Source: Methanolobus sp. ZRKC5 (GTDB taxonomy: Archaea > Halobacteriota > Methanosarcinia > Methanosarcinales > Methanosarcinaceae). From it: a stretch of 64,000 nt of DNA. Shown here in pieces: positions 51,591 through 62,916 of this stretch; within the stretch, counting starts at the first letter, position 1; each line of letters opens with the position of its first letter. The stretch spans positions 2,976,001 to 3,040,000 of the forward strand of contig NZ_CP151792.1 in the NCBI RefSeq assembly GCF_038446525.1, written 5' to 3'. The position numbers and the translations under genes are program-made. The notes beneath the pieces were generated by a model that saw nothing but the letters and a program-made list of their open reading frames with translations, was not told where the DNA came from and ran no database searches.

Positions 51591-52943
51591 TCATTCACCG
51601 GAATTCACCAGCCAGCAATGACAATTGGACTGGAAGATATCCCCATGGGCAAAATTAGCTGCAATACAACTTCCCCTACACACGGGAAGCCAATCGCACT
51701 CCTGACAACTGCCTTTTACATCCGTGGCTTTCAGGCTCCTGAAATAATTCAGGAAACGGGAGTTATCCCATATCCACTGGAAATCGTGTTCTTTCACATT
51801 CTCAGTCTCTGCTCCTGAAAAGTAGTTGCATGGGAGGACTTCTCCGCTTGATGTGACAGTGCAGTATCCAATGGCACCATCGCATCCGATTCTTGTCTCA
51901 GCATCAATCCCCTGTTCTGGTGGAGGGCTGAAAGTGCACTCGAATTCCATTGGAGCTATATTGAGTTCGTTTGCCTCTTTCTTAGAATGAAGGAACTCCG
52001 TCAGTTCTCCCATTCTTGCAGGAGCGACTTCCAGTTCATCAGCATACTTGCCTCGTCCGAATGGAACAAAAGGCAGGATGCGGAATGTTTGAACTCCAAG
52101 ATTTTTTCCAAGTTCGTAGAGCTCAGGGATGTTGTCGATGTTCATTGTAGTAACTGTGGCTGCAAGTGTGACGGGAACGCCTGCTTCCACAAGAAGCTCG
52201 ATTCCCTCCCTTGTTTTCTGCCACGAGCCGGGATGCTGGCGAAACTCATCATGCACGGCAGACTCGGAGGAATCAAGGCTCACCTGTGCACAGGCACCTA
52301 TACTGGCAAGTTTATGTGCAGCTGTCTCATCTATCAGCGTTCCGTTGGTAGCAACCTGTATCATGATGTTCTTTCCTGCTGCATATTCGGCAATCTCGAA
52401 AAAGTCCTTCCTGAACATCGGCTCACCACCACTAAGGATCAATTGTCCGACCCCAAAATCTGCAAATTGGTCTATCAGTGTGCAACACTCGTCAAAACTT
52501 AACTCTTCTGTGCCCTCTTCACCTGCACTAACAACGCAGTGCTTGCATCTCAGGTTGCATTTTGCTGTCAGGTCCCATAATACGCCGGCAGGAGCCGGGA
52601 ATTTCCAGTAGTTAAGCCTATCTTTGCGCCACCAGAGAACTCCTTCATTTGTGAGTTTCTCAAGCAGGGGTATACTCATGTCAACAACGTCGTTCCTGTC
52701 AGTCTTATAGGACTTCGAGATCTCAGTGATGACCTCATCAAGTGTCCTGTATCCATCACACAGCTTCAACAGCCAGAAAGCAGGCTCATTCAGCTCATTT
52801 TCCTGCCCGGTAAAGGGGCTTTCTATCACCCATACATCCTCTTCCTGATTGATGCGGAAGGGGAAATATGGCACAAGCTCATCCCTATCTAAAATAGAAA
52901 AGGGTCCGGGAATAGTTCCCGGTTCGTTTTTCAGTAAGCTCAC
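51591..52943 (-). CDS. Radical SAM/SPASM protein with N-terminal PqqD-like domain
   Basis: 450 residues from a GTG at 52943 that overlaps the protease stop (GTGA), so it is made in step with the protease. Residues about 1-110 form a PqqD/RRE-like domain (AFWLLKLCDGYRTLDEVITE), the part that usually grips a peptide substrate. The radical SAM core has C129/C133/C136 (CNLRCKHC) and SGGEP at 171-175. The C-terminal SPASM region has many cysteines (C354, C361, C372, C413, C416, C422, C426, C441, C443) for extra iron-sulfur clusters. This architecture is typical of enzymes that modify ribosomal peptides (thioether, Cys-to-C bonds). Candidate substrates are the 64-residue peptide at 55715 or the protease's own Cys-rich tail. 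Confidence 0.85.
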   Translation of the reverse strand: MSLLKNEPGTIPGPFSILDRDELVPYFPFRINQEEDVWVIESPFTGQENELNEPAFWLLKLCDGYRTLDEVITEISKSYKTDRNDVVDMSIPLLEKLTNEGVLWWRKDRLNYWKFPAPAGVLWDLTAKCNLRCKHCVVSAGEEGTEELSFDECCTLIDQFADFGVGQLILSGGEPMFRKDFFEIAEYAAGKNIMIQVATNGTLIDETAAHKLASIGACAQVSLDSSESAVHDEFRQHPGSWQKTREGIELLVEAGVPVTLAATVTTMNIDNIPELYELGKNLGVQTFRILPFVPFGRGKYADELEVAPARMGELTEFLHSKKEANELNIAPMEFECTFSPPPEQGIDAETRIGCDGAIGYCTVTSSGEVLPCNYFSGAETENVKEHDFQWIWDNSRFLNYFRSLKATDVKGSCQECDWLPVCRGSCIAANFAHGDIFQSNCHCWLVNSGE

Positions 52944-55096
52944 CTAATTTCCCCAAGCATTACAAGGGTCTTCTTTCTCCAGTCATTCATCTTAGCTTCC
53001 GATATTCCCAGGACCTCTGAAAGTTCACTTATCTTCTTTGAGTTCTCAGTAGCCTTCAGGAACTCTCCCAGATTCTGGATGGATCTGGCTTTGAAAAGAG
53101 TCGCAGTTTCAGGACCGATTCCTATAATTTCCAGTATATCTGTTTTCACCGTTATATCCGGTCTTATGCGGATCTCCGGATTATAAGGCATTGGATCAGG
53201 CCCTGGCAGACATGACAGTCCAGGTGACGGTGGACATGCCGTATATGGCGAAGGCGGACATACTATCATTGGTGATGGTGGGCATATCAGGTCCGGTGAT
53301 GGTGGACATATTATATGTGGCGATGGCGGACATGTAAAACCTGGTGAAGGTGGGCATATATATGGTGCAGGAGGGCATGCGAAACCCGGTGCAGGTGGGC
53401 ATAGTATATGTGGCGATGGCGGACAGATGGATGGAGCTATCCAGCATATTAGCGGACAGATAACCGCGGTGCCAATACCCACAGCAGCAAAAGCATTGAT
53501 AATGCTTGCTCTCCAGCGTGAATAATGCGGGTTGGTTGAGTAGAGATCATCAAGTGAATCCAACACCGCATCTTTCATATCACTAAAATCGGAACTTGAA
53601 ACCAGATAGGTTGTAAGTGCCTGGTAGTAAATAAGACCAAGTACGTCGCGTCCAAGTCCTTCACATATCCTGATGCCTCGATGAGTGCCACCAGTTGCTA
53701 TCAGGTAAGCGGCTTTGTTCATAATACCGCTGTTTATGTGGACACCACCGAAGTCTGCGGTACCGGTATATTTGTCAGTCATGTGGTCAGGTTGATGACC
53801 TGCAATAACGCTGTCTATCGGATTTGCAGGGTCATACAGTCCGCCATTGGTTGGGTCTTCCATATTGCGTGAACCAGGTGCGGATGGAAGTAGCCATGCA
53901 TCTTCTCCAAAGAGCCAGTCACCGGTTATCAGAGCGGCAAAGACATCCGACATGGATTCATTCAAAGCACCGGATTCATTACTATATACCAGTCCTGCAG
54001 TGTACTCAGTAACAGCATGTGTCCATTCATGGGAGATTATATCCTGTGCACAAAGTGGATTATATCTTATTCCATCTCCGTTTCCTATCTTGACATAACT
54101 TCCATTCCATGATGCATTATTCCAATCTGTTCCGCAGTTGGCATAAATATGCATGTCAGCTCCGGCATTATCGTAGCTGTCACGTCCGTGTACAGTAAAG
54201 AAATAGTCAAACACCATCCTCGTGTAAAGATGACAATCAACATCAGGCCCCTGAGCTGCTGCAGACCAGTTGTTATTGTTGTCTTCAGAGACAGGGGCAG
54301 GAGGATAGCCACCATTGGCATCGTGAGTAATTACCCTTCCAGAACTGGGTATCGATTGATCTTCAAGTAGATATTTGGCTGAGCCATGATCGTGTAATGT
54401 GCTAATAGTTGATGCACCTGCATATGTTCCTATTCCTGAACCGGTGGTACTTGTATGTGTCTGCTCATTATTGTATTTCCAGACAATTTTCCCGGTCAGT
54501 GCATCAACAAAGTATTCCCATTTTGCAGGCGTTTTATCGCCATTTAGCATTTTATCCATACCATTGACAGTCACATGCCATACAAGATGGGGTGTTTCGA
54601 TGAACTGTGAAAGTATCATAAGAGTAGGCTCTGCATGCAGGCGTTCCTTAGAATTATTCCTATCATCGCCAAGTACTATTTTCAGAGCTTCTTCATCCTT
54701 GATTTTTGGTTTTTCCGGAAGTTTGATTCCAGGTGTTAGTTTCCCTGTTGTTCCTTTGATGCTATTATTTGCATCAATATGAACTATCACTTCACTGCCA
54801 AATACAGGTAAGTCCTTGTAGACCTGCTGCATACGAACATGTCTGGTGCCGATTCTGTCAGTATCTACTCTCTTAAGCAGCATTTCCTTTTGAACGGATT
54901 CCAGTAAAAAAAGTCCCTTGTTCCCATCAAGGAAATCCAATGCAGCATTTACCGGATCTTTCTGCTCATTCCGGGCCAGAACACCCTTCAATCGCAGTGG
55001 AGCGCCTGTTTTATCATCCCACTTTATCTCAACATTCGGATCGATGTTTTTAAGAATATTTAATGCATCTTTTTGTTTCTTTATGGGTTCATACAT
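52940..55096 (-). CDS. M4 (thermolysin-family) metalloprotease with CPPxP repeat tail
   Basis: 718 residues. An FTP/PepSY-type propeptide (about 10-205) precedes the catalytic domain: H356-E357-x-x-H360 (HEWTH), third ligand E380 (NESGALNESMSD), and H453 in GGVHINSG, all intact. No signal peptide is visible, which is unusual for this secreted family. After residue 545 a repeat tail begins: cysteines at 558, 566, 574, 581, 589, 597, 605, 613, 621 and 629, each starting CPPSP or CPPAP (the last CLPGP). After it comes a helix-hairpin-helix-like domain (about 652-718: ILEIIGIGPETATLFKARSI). The ATG at 55096 follows GGGGAGAT. Coupled to the radical SAM gene; possibly a maturation or leader protease, or itself the modified protein. 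Confidence 0.85.
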   Translation of the reverse strand: MYEPIKKQKDALNILKNIDPNVEIKWDDKTGAPLRLKGVLARNEQKDPVNAALDFLDGNKGLFLLESVQKEMLLKRVDTDRIGTRHVRMQQVYKDLPVFGSEVIVHIDANNSIKGTTGKLTPGIKLPEKPKIKDEEALKIVLGDDRNNSKERLHAEPTLMILSQFIETPHLVWHVTVNGMDKMLNGDKTPAKWEYFVDALTGKIVWKYNNEQTHTSTTGSGIGTYAGASTISTLHDHGSAKYLLEDQSIPSSGRVITHDANGGYPPAPVSEDNNNNWSAAAQGPDVDCHLYTRMVFDYFFTVHGRDSYDNAGADMHIYANCGTDWNNASWNGSYVKIGNGDGIRYNPLCAQDIISHEWTHAVTEYTAGLVYSNESGALNESMSDVFAALITGDWLFGEDAWLLPSAPGSRNMEDPTNGGLYDPANPIDSVIAGHQPDHMTDKYTGTADFGGVHINSGIMNKAAYLIATGGTHRGIRICEGLGRDVLGLIYYQALTTYLVSSSDFSDMKDAVLDSLDDLYSTNPHYSRWRASIINAFAAVGIGTAVICPLICWIAPSICPPSPHILCPPAPGFACPPAPYICPPSPGFTCPPSPHIICPPSPDLICPPSPMIVCPPSPYTACPPSPGLSCLPGPDPMPYNPEIRIRPDITVKTDILEIIGIGPETATLFKARSIQNLGEFLKATENSKKISELSEVLGISEAKMNDWRKKTLVMLGEIR
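53212..53425 (-). repeat. Codon repeats encoding the CPPxP tail
   Basis: Ten units of 24 bases (one of 21), each encoding Cys-Pro-(Pro or Leu-Gly)-(Ser/Ala)-Pro plus three variable residues. The unit sequence differs from copy to copy at the third bases, so the repeats have been kept by selection on the protein and not recently amplified. Confidence 0.8.
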
Positions 55097-55280: not shown

Positions 55281-55299
55281 GGGTAAAATAAAAAATCGG

Positions 55300-55493
55300 G
55301 TAACTATTCAGCCTGATAAAAACGCTATCAATAACAATCTTGACAAAAAGTTGAAACGTAAATTTCATTAGAATCATTTATTTTGATTGTTGCTATTGAT
55401 TGCTTTTTTGATTGTTAGATTGTTAGTGAGCAGACATCTCTATTTCGATGAAATCAGTACCAATAGGCAAATCGTGCCAGGCTGAATAGTTAC
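55300..55493 (+). mobile_element. 194-bp MITE with IS66-type ends, copy 6
   Basis: Inserted into the left edge of copy 7: its 8-base duplication AAAATCGG is at 55292-55299 and 55494-55501, and the last G is the first base of copy 7. Confidence 0.9.
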
Positions 55494-55500
55494 AAAATCG

Positions 55501-55694
55501 GTAACTATTCAGCCTGATAAAAACGCTATCAATAACAATCTTGACAAAAAGTTGAAACGTAAATTTCATTAGGATCATTTATTTTGATTGTTGCTATTGA
55601 TTGATTTTTTGATTGTTAGATTGTTAGTGAGCAGACATCTCTATTTCGATGAAATCAGTACCAATAGGCAAATCGTGCCAGGCTGAATAGTTAC
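55501..55694 (+). mobile_element. 194-bp MITE with IS66-type ends, copy 7
   Basis: Older insertion; duplication AAAAATCG at 55291-55298 and 55695-55702. Lies 20 bases downstream of the Trp-Cys peptide gene stop. Confidence 0.9.
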
Positions 55695-55714
55695 AAAAAT
55701 CGATATAAAGGCAA

Positions 55715-55909
55715 TTATTTCTTTTCTTTTTCCTTCTCTTTCTGTTCTACTGTAGTGTTATCACACCAGGCATCAACTTCGAGGTCTCCTGCACTCTTTG
55801 TCTCGTCATTTTGTTCTGGAACCGTACACCAGGTATCTATTTGTTCATCCAGAGGTGGAATCTCTATGTCCTCTAGTTTTTTCCCTTTTATTTCTTTCTT
55901 TTTATCCAT
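55715..55909 (-). CDS. Small peptide with two D-x-W-C motifs (possible RiPP precursor)
   Basis: 64 residues, ATG at 55909 preceded by AAGGAGG (55916-55922) with 6-base spacing, a strong ribosome site. Lysine-rich start (MDKKKEIKGKKLEDIEIPP), then a repeat-like pair IDTWCTVPEQ (24-33) and VDAWCDNTTVEQ (45-56) with W27-C28 and W48-C49 exactly 21 residues apart, ending in KEKEKK. It has no signal peptide. A leader-like charged N-terminus and a short Cys-containing core make it look like a ribosomal peptide precursor. The radical SAM and protease genes lie downstream in the same direction, separated by about 620 bases of which about 400 are MITE. No known family recognised. Confidence 0.6.
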   Translation of the reverse strand: MDKKKEIKGKKLEDIEIPPLDEQIDTWCTVPEQNDETKSAGDLEVDAWCDNTTVEQKEKEKEKK

Positions 55910-55958
55910 CAGATGCCTCCTTAAATTCTTATCGTTTCTGTTTGTTCAAAAATGTTTT

Positions 55959-56152
55959 GTAACTATTCAGCCTGATAAAAACGCTATCAATAACAATCTT
56001 GACAAAAAGTTGAAACGTAAATTTCATTAGAATCATTTATTTTGATTGTTGCTATTGATTGCTTTTTTGATTGTTAGATTGTTAGTGAGCAGACATCTCT
56101 ATTTCGATGAAATCAGTACCAATAGGCAAATCGTGCCAGGCTGAATAGTTAC
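55959..56152 (+). mobile_element. 194-bp MITE with IS66-type ends, copy 8
   Basis: Duplication AATGTTTT at 55951-55958 and 56153-56160. It lies about 50 bases upstream of the peptide start and may separate it from its promoter. Confidence 0.92.
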
Positions 56153-56322
56153 AATGTTTTTACACTCCTGGAAGATGCAACCCAAACAATATTAATCATG
56201 AAGAATGAATATTGATTCGGGAAAAACATTGTCATAATCAAAAACTTTGGTAGTTTCATCTATAATATATCTGAAGGAAAAATGACTGCTAAAGTTGAAA
56301 TAGAGTTAGTTGAAATTATTTT

Positions 56323-58415: not shown

Positions 58416-59141
58416 TTATAGGACCTGATTTATGGTCCTTAATTCTATGATCTGTCCCCACATGTGGAAACTCATCATATCATCACGTGGATATGCTGTA
58501 AATCTAACTTCTGTGCCGTCAGTACTCAATTCTTCTGGTAAGTTTACAGGATCATACTTTACGTCAGAAGTTCCAATGATTCCATAGAAACCGCCTTCAA
58601 TGTCGTTGTATGTTACTTTTCCTTTGTCGGTTATAAGTTTATTCTCAGCAAGCACCCTTATGATCAGATCATAGTTGTTCTCGGTCCCTGTCCTTTCTTC
58701 CCATGGACGGATGTATACTGCGGATATGCTTTGCTCTTCTGTGTCAGTGACTTTAAAGATCCATTTGTGAGAACCACCTGCACCTACAAGGTTTACATTC
58801 ATGCTTTCTTGAAGGAACATATCCTCTCTAAGTTCAAGTCCACTGCTGTATGTCATATTCCATGAATAACCGGTTGTGGGATTCTCTTCAAGGTTGACAA
58901 CAATTGTATCACCAACGATGGCATAGACTGTGTTCTGGCTGTCATTCTCTGAATACTCATGGTGAAGAGGTGGTATTGCTTTTGTTGTCACGTTAGCATC
59001 GTCGGTATTTTCTGTATGCTCATCGGCATCTGGCGTTGTAGTAGCATTATTGTCTTCAGTGTTGTCTGACACACAACCTGAAGTCATACATATAAGAATG
59101 ACAACCGCTGAAACTGTAAGTAATCTGATGTTTAACCTCAA
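58416..59141 (-). CDS. Chagasin-like (I42) cysteine-protease inhibitor lipoprotein
   Basis: 241 residues. Lipobox-like TSGC at the end of a signal peptide, then a low-complexity acidic linker. The inhibitor domain (about 70-160) shows the three chagasin loops in order: NPTTGYSW, GAGGSHKWIF and RPWEE. Chagasins block papain-type (C1) proteases. After it comes about 70 residues of unrecognised sequence (GGFYGIIGTSDVKYDPV). Anchored outside the cell, it may protect surface proteins from external proteases. Paired with a serpin gene 0.7 kb away. Confidence 0.82.
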   Translation of the reverse strand: MRLNIRLLTVSAVVILICMTSGCVSDNTEDNNATTTPDADEHTENTDDANVTTKAIPPLHHEYSENDSQNTVYAIVGDTIVVNLEENPTTGYSWNMTYSSGLELREDMFLQESMNVNLVGAGGSHKWIFKVTDTEEQSISAVYIRPWEERTGTENNYDLIIRVLAENKLITDKGKVTYNDIEGGFYGIIGTSDVKYDPVNLPEELSTDGTEVRFTAYPRDDMMSFHMWGQIIELRTINQVL

Positions 59142-59811: not shown

Positions 59812-61074
59812 ATGCATACCTCTAAATTAAAGATTATGAGATTTTTAAAAATAATAACATTAGTTTCATTATGCGTGTTTTCATCACTTTTCCTTGGTTG
59901 CGTTGAAGATTCAACTGTAAATACAAAGACTATTATCAGTGCAGAATCCGTTGAGGAATATGATATTGCAACAGCAAACAATGCTTTTGCTTTTGACATG
60001 TATTCAATGATAAAAAATAATGGTGAAAATGTCTTCTTTTCGCCATACAGTATATTTTCTGCAGTGGCTATTTGTTATGATGGAGCTGAAGGTACTACAA
60101 AAGAACAGATATCAAATGTATTTTACTATCCTCTTAGTAAACCTGTTCTTGAAGAAAGTTCGAAAGAGATGATAGGCACAATTAATTCTGGTAACGATGA
60201 ATACGAACTTAAATCCGCGAATGCACTATGGGTTCTTAAAGATTATACATTGAATGAACAGTATGTATCTAATGCAGAAAACTACTATAGCGGGAAGGTA
60301 ACACCACTTGATTTTGCAGGACAAACAGAAGAATCCAGACTTGTAATCAATGATTGGGTTGAGGATAAAACAAATGACAAAATAAAGGATCTGCTGGCTA
60401 AAGGAACCATTGATGGAAGTACAAGGTTAATAATTACCAATGCAGTCTATTTCAATGGTACATGGCTACAGGAATTTGAAGAAGCAGGTACAAGAAAAGG
60501 AGCATTCTATCTTTCCGATGGGCGGGAGAAGAAAGTTGACACGATGTATGTCGTAGGTACATTCAATTATGGGGAAGATGAGAATGCCAAAATCTTAGAA
60601 TTGCCGTATAAGGGTGATGATATTAGCATGTACATTATTCTTCCATCTGAAAATGACATTGAAGGCTTTGAAAACGATTTTACGCTTGCTTACTACAAAG
60701 AGCTAAAGGAAATTCTTAATTCGGACCAAGTAAAAATCTTGTTGCCAAAGTTCATGTTTGATACAAAAGCGGAATTAAATAAACCATTACAGAACATGGG
60801 AATCGTTGATGCCTTTGATTCAGACAAGGCTGATTTTACAGGAATCAGTGCCAATGGTGGATTATTCATATCTGAAGTAGTACATCAAGCACACATTGGG
60901 GTAAACGAGAAAGGAACTGAAGCTGCTGCTGCAACGGCTGCTATGATGCTAACATCAGGGATAGTATCAACCTGGCAGTTCGAAGCTGACCATCCATTCA
61001 TGTTCTTCATCGAGGACAAAAGAACGGGTTGTATACTCTTTATGGGAAAAGTTGAGAAACCTGAATCAGAGTAA
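59812..61074 (+). CDS. Serpin-family serine-protease inhibitor lipoprotein
   Basis: 420 residues. Signal peptide with lipobox LFLGC, then the serpin fold: NVFFSPYSIFSAVAICYDGA, ANALWVLKDYTLNEQY, TRLIITNAVYFNGTW, LELPYKGDDISMYIILPSEN, and the reactive loop hinge GTEAAAATAAMM (from about residue 368), with HPFMFFI and FMGKV after it. An alanine-rich hinge is typical of inhibitory serpins. The P1 residue and target protease cannot be set from sequence. Start either ATG 59812 or ATG 59836; neither has a good ribosome site, so a leaderless transcript is possible. Prokaryotic serpins are rare but known in Methanosarcinales. Confidence 0.88.
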   Translation: MHTSKLKIMRFLKIITLVSLCVFSSLFLGCVEDSTVNTKTIISAESVEEYDIATANNAFAFDMYSMIKNNGENVFFSPYSIFSAVAICYDGAEGTTKEQISNVFYYPLSKPVLEESSKEMIGTINSGNDEYELKSANALWVLKDYTLNEQYVSNAENYYSGKVTPLDFAGQTEESRLVINDWVEDKTNDKIKDLLAKGTIDGSTRLIITNAVYFNGTWLQEFEEAGTRKGAFYLSDGREKKVDTMYVVGTFNYGEDENAKILELPYKGDDISMYIILPSENDIEGFENDFTLAYYKELKEILNSDQVKILLPKFMFDTKAELNKPLQNMGIVDAFDSDKADFTGISANGGLFISEVVHQAHIGVNEKGTEAAAATAAMMLTSGIVSTWQFEADHPFMFFIEDKRTGCILFMGKVEKPESE

Positions 61075-61769: not shown

Positions 61770-62916
61770 GAGGATTTCGATATTCCCTCATTTTAGATCA
61801 TTAAAGTATTCAAACTCAATTATATCCTCTCATTTTTTATCATTTTGTTTAATTTCTCTTCATTAATCCTTATTTTTAGTATAGCTCCCGCTATCCTAAA
61901 TTACTCCTTTGGTTTTTAGTGTCCTCAATTGATGCAGATTAAAACAAAAAGCTGTCATCAACATTTTTGCATTCACTCTTTCTACAGTTGTAACAAGAAC
62001 CTTTCTGGTTTTAAATATTTCTTTTGTCACTGCATACACTCTTTCGCAAGGGACTCTTTTCACACTTATTCTTTCATTTCTGAGGATATCCATTATTCCT
62101 AAAGGATGTCCTCTTACAGCTCGTTGCATTGTTGCTGCAAAACCTTTTGCTATTGCTCCAAAATATCCTTTATCTCTATACACCACTTCACCCTTTTCAG
62201 ACAGATCAACCTGTGAATCGTGAAGTGATGCAGTTGTTGTCTCAAATCTTCTGATTAGTTCATAATCCTTATCAATAATTGTATGAAGTTTGTATCCAAA
62301 GTGAGATTTACCATTTTTCTTAGTCCAGGTTCCATCTTTGCTTCTTCTTGTTTTCGCATCTTTTCCTCTGAGTACATCTGCTTTTGCATGTCCTGGATCT
62401 GAGTGAATAAAAGTTGCATCCTGGATCATTCCTTTTTTAATCTTCAAACCAAGAGCATCAAGCTGATTCTGCATTTCATCCCACACCGCTTTTTCTTTAC
62501 CATTGTCGATAATTCTCTTCCTGAATGACCAGACAGTTGTACTGTCTGGTACATATTCAGGAAATCCCAGGAATTTCCTAAAGGATATCCTGTCAATACA
62601 CTGCTTTTCAAGCTCAGCATCAGAAAGACCATGCCATTGTTGCAGAACAAGCATCTTGAACATTACAATAACATCAGCTTCAGGCCGTCCGCCTGAAGCT
62701 GTTCTGTTTATGTACATTGACTCCAGAATAGGGCGAAAAGGCTTCCAATCTACTAAATATTCAATTTCAGCAAGCTTATCTCCGACAGATTGGAGACGCT
62801 TATATTCTTCATTTAAGGCAAAATCAGTAAAAGAATCCATAATAGTAAATTTGCTTTGCTATTATTTAAATTTTATTAAATTGTATGAGTATTGATGGTA
62901 GTTTCTCGAAATCCTC
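61770..62916 (-). mobile_element. IS5-type element, copy 3
   Basis: 1,147 bases. Ends GAGGATTTCGATA and CTCGAAATCCTC (one mismatch at the right end). Duplication TACA at 61766-61769 and 62917-62920. Confidence 0.93.
61896..62840 (-). CDS. IS5-family transposase, copy 3
   Basis: 314 residues, identical to copies 1 and 2. Intact. Only one base is inserted in the flanking element sequence (GTTTAATTTC versus GTTTATTTC). Confidence 0.92.
   Translation of the reverse strand: MDSFTDFALNEEYKRLQSVGDKLAEIEYLVDWKPFRPILESMYINRTASGGRPEADVIVMFKMLVLQQWHGLSDAELEKQCIDRISFRKFLGFPEYVPDSTTVWSFRKRIIDNGKEKAVWDEMQNQLDALGLKIKKGMIQDATFIHSDPGHAKADVLRGKDAKTRRSKDGTWTKKNGKSHFGYKLHTIIDKDYELIRRFETTTASLHDSQVDLSEKGEVVYRDKGYFGAIAKGFAATMQRAVRGHPLGIMDILRNERISVKRVPCERVYAVTKEIFKTRKVLVTTVERVNAKMLMTAFCFNLHQLRTLKTKGVI

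Follow-up and report, generated by a model that had tools for sequence, protein, structure and literature searches.

Radical SAM thioether chemistry is known mostly from small peptides, QhpC being an exception. In streptosactin, two unnested sactionines join Cys25 to Ser28 and Cys31 to Gly34 (PMC8172795), and the radical SAM enzyme QhpD places thioethers in a whole protein subunit (PMC8172795, PMC7876137). PapB joins Cys to Asp/Glu (PMC9413430), and TvgB makes cyclopropylglycine on TVGG repeats (PMC9062424). The locus described here resembles each of these systems in part. It lies in a 64,000-nucleotide stretch of Methanolobus sp. ZRKC5 (contig NZ_CP151792.1, positions 2,976,001 to 3,040,000), called the window below. 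We found no description of its pairing of a protease-borne Cys-Pro ladder with a radical SAM gene in the open-access literature.

The locus and the streptosactin/GggB system both have a radical SAM/SPASM maturase, and their spacing is alike: streptosactin has Cys joined to Ser/Gly at i+3 in unnested rings six residues apart, and the ladder repeats C-x-x-[ASGV] every 6-9 residues. However, streptosactin is a secreted peptide of 14 residues, excised from a small precursor, whereas the ladder holds 10-16 Cys inside a protease of 470-718 aa, without a separate precursor. Nor is there the small sactipeptide precursor with an N-terminal leader and a C-terminal Cys core; here the Cys core is inside a full-length protease, and more sequence comes after it. 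The QhpC/QhpD/QhpE system (QhpC is the gamma subunit of quinohemoprotein amine dehydrogenase) is similar in having thioethers in a functional protein and a subtilisin involved (PMC7876137). It differs in that QhpD joins Cys to Asp/Glu of QhpC and QhpE is a separate processing protease, whereas the ladder protease itself carries the Cys segment, without conserved Asp/Glu acceptors. Ranthipeptides (PapB; CteB-type) also have repeated Cys units, but again the ladder units have no conserved Asp/Glu. TvgB, finally, is likewise a radical SAM enzyme working on a tandem short motif, but its motif has no cysteine, its chemistry is carbon-carbon and its substrate is a small precursor peptide.

The ladder protease and its radical SAM/SPASM partner

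The protease (Table 1) has the features by which MEROPS describes family M4. The motifs HEWTH...NESGALNE...HINSG are all intact, so the zinc site HExxH...E is present, together with the N- and C-terminal M4 catalytic domains and an FTP propeptide, which is followed by a weak PepSY match (aa 134-204). An N-terminal secretion signal, usual though not universal in MEROPS M4, was not evident in a simple hydrophobicity heuristic: the N-terminus, which reads MYEPIKKQKDAL, had a maximum of 0.64, against 2.98 for a lipoprotein control. The M4 relatives of other Methanosarcinales that were examined (L016, L017, L018, L023) have no ladder. Their N-termini are likewise without an obvious signal peptide. 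The sequences suggest that methanogens may hold a wider group of signal-less M4 proteases.

Table 1. Features of the ladder locus, in window positions
Feature	Position	Strand	Basis
M4 (thermolysin-family) protease, 718 aa	52940..55096	minus	Pfam PF01447 97.6 bits, PF02868 128.4 bits
FTP propeptide motif, aa 74-119 of the protease	54740..54877	minus	PF07504, 52.4 bits
M4 catalytic and alpha-helical domains, aa 218-541	53474..54445	minus	PF01447, PF02868
Cys-Pro ladder, aa 547-633: CPLI CWIAPSI, nine CPP[SA]P units, terminal CLPGP; proposed radical SAM substrate	53198..53458	minus	grammar common to S8 and M12A tails
C-terminal helical domain, helix-hairpin-helix-like, aa 654-715	52952..53137	minus	AF2 helices, pLDDT 68-87
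Radical SAM/SPASM maturase, 450 aa, GTG start overlapping the protease stop (GTGA)	51591..52943	minus	domain matches, motifs
RRE/PqqD-like N-terminal domain of the maturase, aa 24-106	52626..52874	minus	PF05402 E 8e-5, 23.3 bits (cut-off 23.4)
SPASM domain of the maturase, aa 354-443, CX12GX4C / CX2CX5CX3C / C	51615..51884	minus	PF13186 1.9e-7
WC peptide, 64 aa, two D[TA]WC motifs, acidic middle, lysine-rich ends	55715-55909	minus	by sequence

The initial annotation of this stretch had described ten regularly spaced CPP[SA]P repeats between the catalytic domain and a helix-hairpin-helix-like end, next to a radical SAM gene. Most of this picture was confirmed. The end is present: besides its modelled helices, it has weak profile matches to HHH_5/DUF4332 and weak fold matches (E about 1) to the N-domain of RadA/RAD51 paralogues and to Hel308. 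The cysteines at 558, 566, 574, 581, 589, 597, 605, 613, 621 and 629 are exactly placed in the translated protease. Nine of these ten open a CPP[SA]P unit, but the tenth, Cys629, opens CLPGP, and the supposed period of 8 is mostly kept, with a spacing of 7 occasionally. Two further cysteines precede the series, at 547 (CPLI) and 551 (CWIAP), and the CWIAP unit fits the C-x-x-A-P rule too. Spacing within the ladder is 6-9, without CxC or CxxC in the ladder itself. In the AF2 model the ladder is unstructured (pLDDT about 30), and this model carries no information on cross-links.

When the CPP.P codons were compared between ladder units, 87 of 87 mismatches fell at codon position 3. Because the Cys/Pro codon differences between units are all silent, we ruled out that the ladder is a product of chance or a DNA repeat artefact. 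Compared with 13 orthologues, none of 247 Cys/Pro positions is replaced, with 134 silent third-position changes, and the other ladder residues are replaced at 66 of 234 positions. The ladder is under strong purifying selection at the protein level. The number of CPPxP/CLPGP units after CWIAP differs among species, from 8 to 10.

The radical SAM gene is the next gene after that of the protease, with an overlap of 4 nt. SPASM maturases carry the signature CX3CX2C plus seven Cys in the arrangement CX9-15GX4C-CX2CX5CX3C-C. In an alignment of eight diverse members of the family, the CX3CX2C cysteines (C129/C133/C136) and the seven SPASM cysteines (C354-x12-G-x4-C372, C413x2C416x5C422x3C426, C443) are all invariant, and the PF04055 and PF13186 matches of the maturase are both above cut-off. 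The N-terminal PqqD/RRE domain can be recognised, rather weakly by sequence alone; PF05402 scores 23.5 bits (cut-off 23.4) in the radical SAM enzyme of the S8 system described below. In the maturase model this region has strands followed by three helices, with a conserved P[YF]FPF motif.

The solved structures nearest to the maturase by sequence are SkfB, PqqE and CteB. By fold they are SkfB, SuiB and CteB, all RRE-bearing, in comparisons made with a modest model (mean pLDDT 64.6); the radical SAM enzyme TigE (8vpo) was also among the fold matches. Note that the maturase reached no NCBIfam cut-off of any named maturase family, the known sactisynthases included (StsB 140.8/625, AlbA 94.8/850 and SkfB 82.3/300 bits), and that its best partial matches are radical SAM enzymes of the heme pathway.

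The cassette in Methanolobus and its counterparts in bacteria

Protease and radical SAM genes are both present and adjacent in 14 of 27 Methanolobus genomes and both absent from the other 13. The 4-nt overlap recurs in 13 of the 14; in the remaining one the called ORF starts further upstream. The cassette is flanked on one side by sfsA, sometimes with an alanine symporter, and on the other by a group comprising the WC peptide, a xanthine permease, UPRT and a chagasin-like inhibitor; in a few species the alanine symporter is on the opposite side. In several of the 13 cassette-free genomes sfsA directly abuts the WC peptide. Since the two genes occur both or neither, and since sfsA can abut the WC peptide where they are missing, we conclude that the pair is gained or lost as a unit. 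In the neighbourhoods compared no transporter or immunity gene is conserved near the cassette, and among the genus genomes compared no separate conserved precursor peptide is linked to it.

The WC peptide is conserved, usually just upstream of the protease and on the same strand, and could for these reasons be proposed as the real radical SAM substrate, with the protease as its leader peptidase. We regard this as very improbable. The peptide occurs in 27 of 27 genus genomes (42-83% identity), including those 13 that have neither protease nor radical SAM gene; therefore it was rejected as a RiPP precursor or partner of the enzyme. Moreover, another gene separates it from the cassette in some genomes, and it was not seen in the bacterial cassettes. 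It has no Pfam or NCBIfam match.

Several other elements were observed around these genes. A MITE-like element of 199 bp (ends GTAACTATTCAGCCTG / CAGGCTGAATAGTTAC) is present in three copies, 98-99% identical: a tandem pair (55299-55497 and 55500-55698) lies between protease and WC peptide, and one copy upstream of the WC peptide (55958-56156). A lipoprotein of the chagasin inhibitor family (I42; 58416-59141, minus) keeps its synteny with the cassette site throughout the genus, and beside it lies a gene judged serpin-like by eye (59812-61074, plus). These two protease inhibitors, less than 7 kb from the protease, belong to classes normally acting on cysteine and serine peptidases. A transposase-like gene, IS5-type by eye, lies near the right end of the window (61896-62840, minus).

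When 84,980 species genomes were scanned for stretches with two CPP[SA]P units, at least 119 such stretches were returned. Most were rejected as chance matches (cyanobacterial DNA repeats open in several frames, GC-rich frames and non-coding repeats), and among the matches listed none of these was a ladder of at least 5 units in a long single-frame ORF. The true ladders among the matches listed were the Methanolobus orthologues and four proteins from bacterial metagenome-assembled genomes (MAGs). Two of the four are subtilisins (S8; G060, G309) from Deltaproteobacteria MAGs, with a PF00082 score of 89.8 bits for the one scanned, whose tails have CYRAP/CRRAP units followed by three CPPxP units and CLAGP. 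The other two are astacins (M12A; G207, G774; PF01400 156-161 bits) from one Deltaproteobacteria and one Chlorobiaceae MAG, with tails of 12-15 units. Like M4, S8 and M12A peptidases in general, the ladder proteases have intact catalytic domains and active-site motifs, those of the S8 and M12A members included; they differ from the usual members of these families in the extra Cys-Pro tail and in the apparent absence of a signal peptide.

Immediately downstream of all four bacterial proteases is a radical SAM gene of the same family, whose product has 38-41% identity to the enzyme of the archaea and shares its N-terminal P[YF]FPF region. Members of this family score at least 700 bits; the next best protein in 345 Halobacteriota genomes scored 296 bits, over the core only. 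The initial annotation had proposed that its idea be judged by whether other tailed proteases have a radical SAM neighbour, and no tailed protease without one was found: among the matches listed, the enzyme is directly downstream of 18 of 18 ladder-tailed proteases across the three unrelated families (M4, S8, M12A). Conversely, when more than 1,600 further genomes (some of them sampled twice) were searched for the radical SAM enzyme, no member of the family turned up that lacked a ladder protease. Phylum-level samples of 400 genomes (phylum of G777) and 379 genomes (phylum of G781) contained no family member, which indicates rarity only, and the plasmids, phages and viral contigs searched gave distant radical SAM enzymes or nothing.

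Masking the ladder leaves the M4 protein without a significant match among the S8 and M12A proteins. The ladder therefore appears to travel with the radical SAM enzyme and not with the protease fold, a transfer that rests on some three independent lineages of bacteria, each represented by metagenome assemblies. Past the ladder, archaeal and bacterial proteins have different C-terminal domains, and the S8 and M12A proteins share just an acidic end with an F[DN]P[ES]C motif, the similarity being marginal (E about 0.05). F[DN]P[ES]C[DES][EG] follows an acidic stretch at the C-terminal ends of L219:9179-11149, L218:4728-6248 and L182:2190-3602. Judged by its sequence, this end may serve for recognition or export. 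In the M4, S8 and M12A tails we identified no recognition site specific to the ladder. Convergent with both S8 cassettes is a Cys-rich protein of about 780 aa and of no known family (L219:5004-7358, plus, and L217:1964-4303, plus; 784 aa in one), 86% identical between the MAGs. This neighbour and a large protein upstream of the G017 protease were considered as a third component and rejected, as they are unrelated to each other and to the other loci.

All tails reduce to one grammar, C-x-x-small-Pro (small being A/S/G, rarely V), with a spacing of 6-9 and a last unit of the form C[LWA]xGP. If the incomplete Cys that opens the M4 and M12A tails is left out of the count, every one of the 130 full M4 units has S/A/G at +3; at that position all 29 S8 units have A/G/V and all 27 M12A units A/G/S/V. 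Pro stands at +4 in 130/130, 29/29 and 24/27 of them, respectively. Positions +1 and +2 are free in S8 units, where CYR/CRR mostly takes the place of CPP. No acidic residue is conserved in the units, so there is no Asp/Glu acceptor at a fixed distance, of the ranthipeptide or QhpC type.

The candidate modification and the fate of the tail

The period-8 cysteines had been read as metal-binding, disulfide-stapled or a thioether substrate of the coupled enzyme. The 18 of 18 coupling favours a substrate; the thioether chemistry itself is suggested by the spacing and the closest maturases. Because the same kind of radical SAM enzyme adjoins ladders on three unrelated protease folds, it probably modifies, and most likely staples, the ladder, and the sequences make a strong case that the ladder is its substrate. 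Free thiolates binding Zn, Cu or Fe-S, or a redox or disulfide rod, beside a radical SAM gene that just shares the operon or has another target, appear improbable to us. Twelve Cys in about 85 residues could bind metal, and methanogens are rich in Fe-S and metals. However, this would explain neither why, in distant bacteria, S8 and astacin proteases with the ladder have the same radical SAM family beside them nor the rule of a small residue at +3, and CxxC or CxC metal sites look different from a ladder with rigid prolines and one Cys in every 6-9 residues.

Given the C-x-x-small spacing, which agrees with streptosactin's unnested bonds in distance and in acceptor types, and given the closest maturases, we propose by analogy, and with moderate confidence, that the modification is a thioether from Cys to the i+3 residue. 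The protease would be translated with the ladder between its catalytic and C-terminal domains; the radical SAM/SPASM enzyme would dock through its RRE-like domain and modify the ladder in the cytoplasm. Each ladder Cys would be joined to the small residue three positions on (Ala, Ser or Gly in C-x-x-[ASG]-P), so that unnested four-residue thioether rings would follow one another along the tail, and the product would be an active protease with a stiff tail, neither reducible nor easily cut. Against this reading, C-x-x-small-Pro could be needed for some other purpose, as a turn or polyproline motif, and the maturase, as scored by its sequence, is below every NCBIfam cut-off for known thioether maturases.

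The ladder might also be the substrate of a different reaction, one that, for instance, epimerises the small residue, forms a C-C bond at the hydrophobic linker residues or alters proline. SPASM radical SAM enzymes perform many reactions on repeats, that of TvgB being one (PMC9062424), and the fold match to TigE (8vpo) points the same way. We nevertheless consider these reactions unlikely, since Cys is the sole invariant residue of all units over the three folds and the linker residues vary freely, the +3 residue can be Gly, where epimerisation is impossible, and most S8 units have lost the proline at +1/+2. On balance we lean slightly towards a two-gene modification cassette in which the radical SAM enzyme installs a row of unnested Cys-to-i+3 thioethers on the tail of a predicted active, apparently signal-less protease.

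As for the fate of the thioether-modified tail, we would suggest, weakly, that it stays on the protease as a spacer or anchor. Speculatively, a protease that has to spare its own tail would be well served by a spacer or anchor that is stiff, non-reducible and uncleavable, and the variation in unit number among species fits a spacer. The main alternative fate is self-release: the protease would carry its own RiPP precursor, the ladder core being modified and then excised by the protease itself to release the modified peptide or peptides. Protease activity is what the three carriers share; a RiPP cluster commonly requires a precursor, a maturase and a protease, a set that two genes would supply here, and no separate conserved precursor is linked to the cassette. 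This fate seems to us rather unlikely, as there is no conserved transporter or immunity gene nearby, the number of units drifts among closely related species, a pattern more in keeping with a spacer than with a defined product, and further conserved sequence follows the ladder in all carriers.

A broader reading, which we offer as tentative and hold at clearly less than even confidence, is that of a portable polysactionine domain, in which one radical SAM family would cross-link at least 10 consecutive C-x-x-[ASG]-P units into unnested four-residue thioether rings on the tails of active archaeal and bacterial proteases with three unrelated folds (M4, S8, M12A). If this is true, radical SAM chemistry builds here a structural protein module, not a peptide natural product. 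C-x-x-[ASG]-P offers a testable substrate grammar, and a tail that follows one radical SAM family over three unrelated proteases suggests a general route to rigid, non-reducible protein segments. It would also mean a RiPP-like modification in archaea, here in methanogens, and might yield a portable cross-linking tag.
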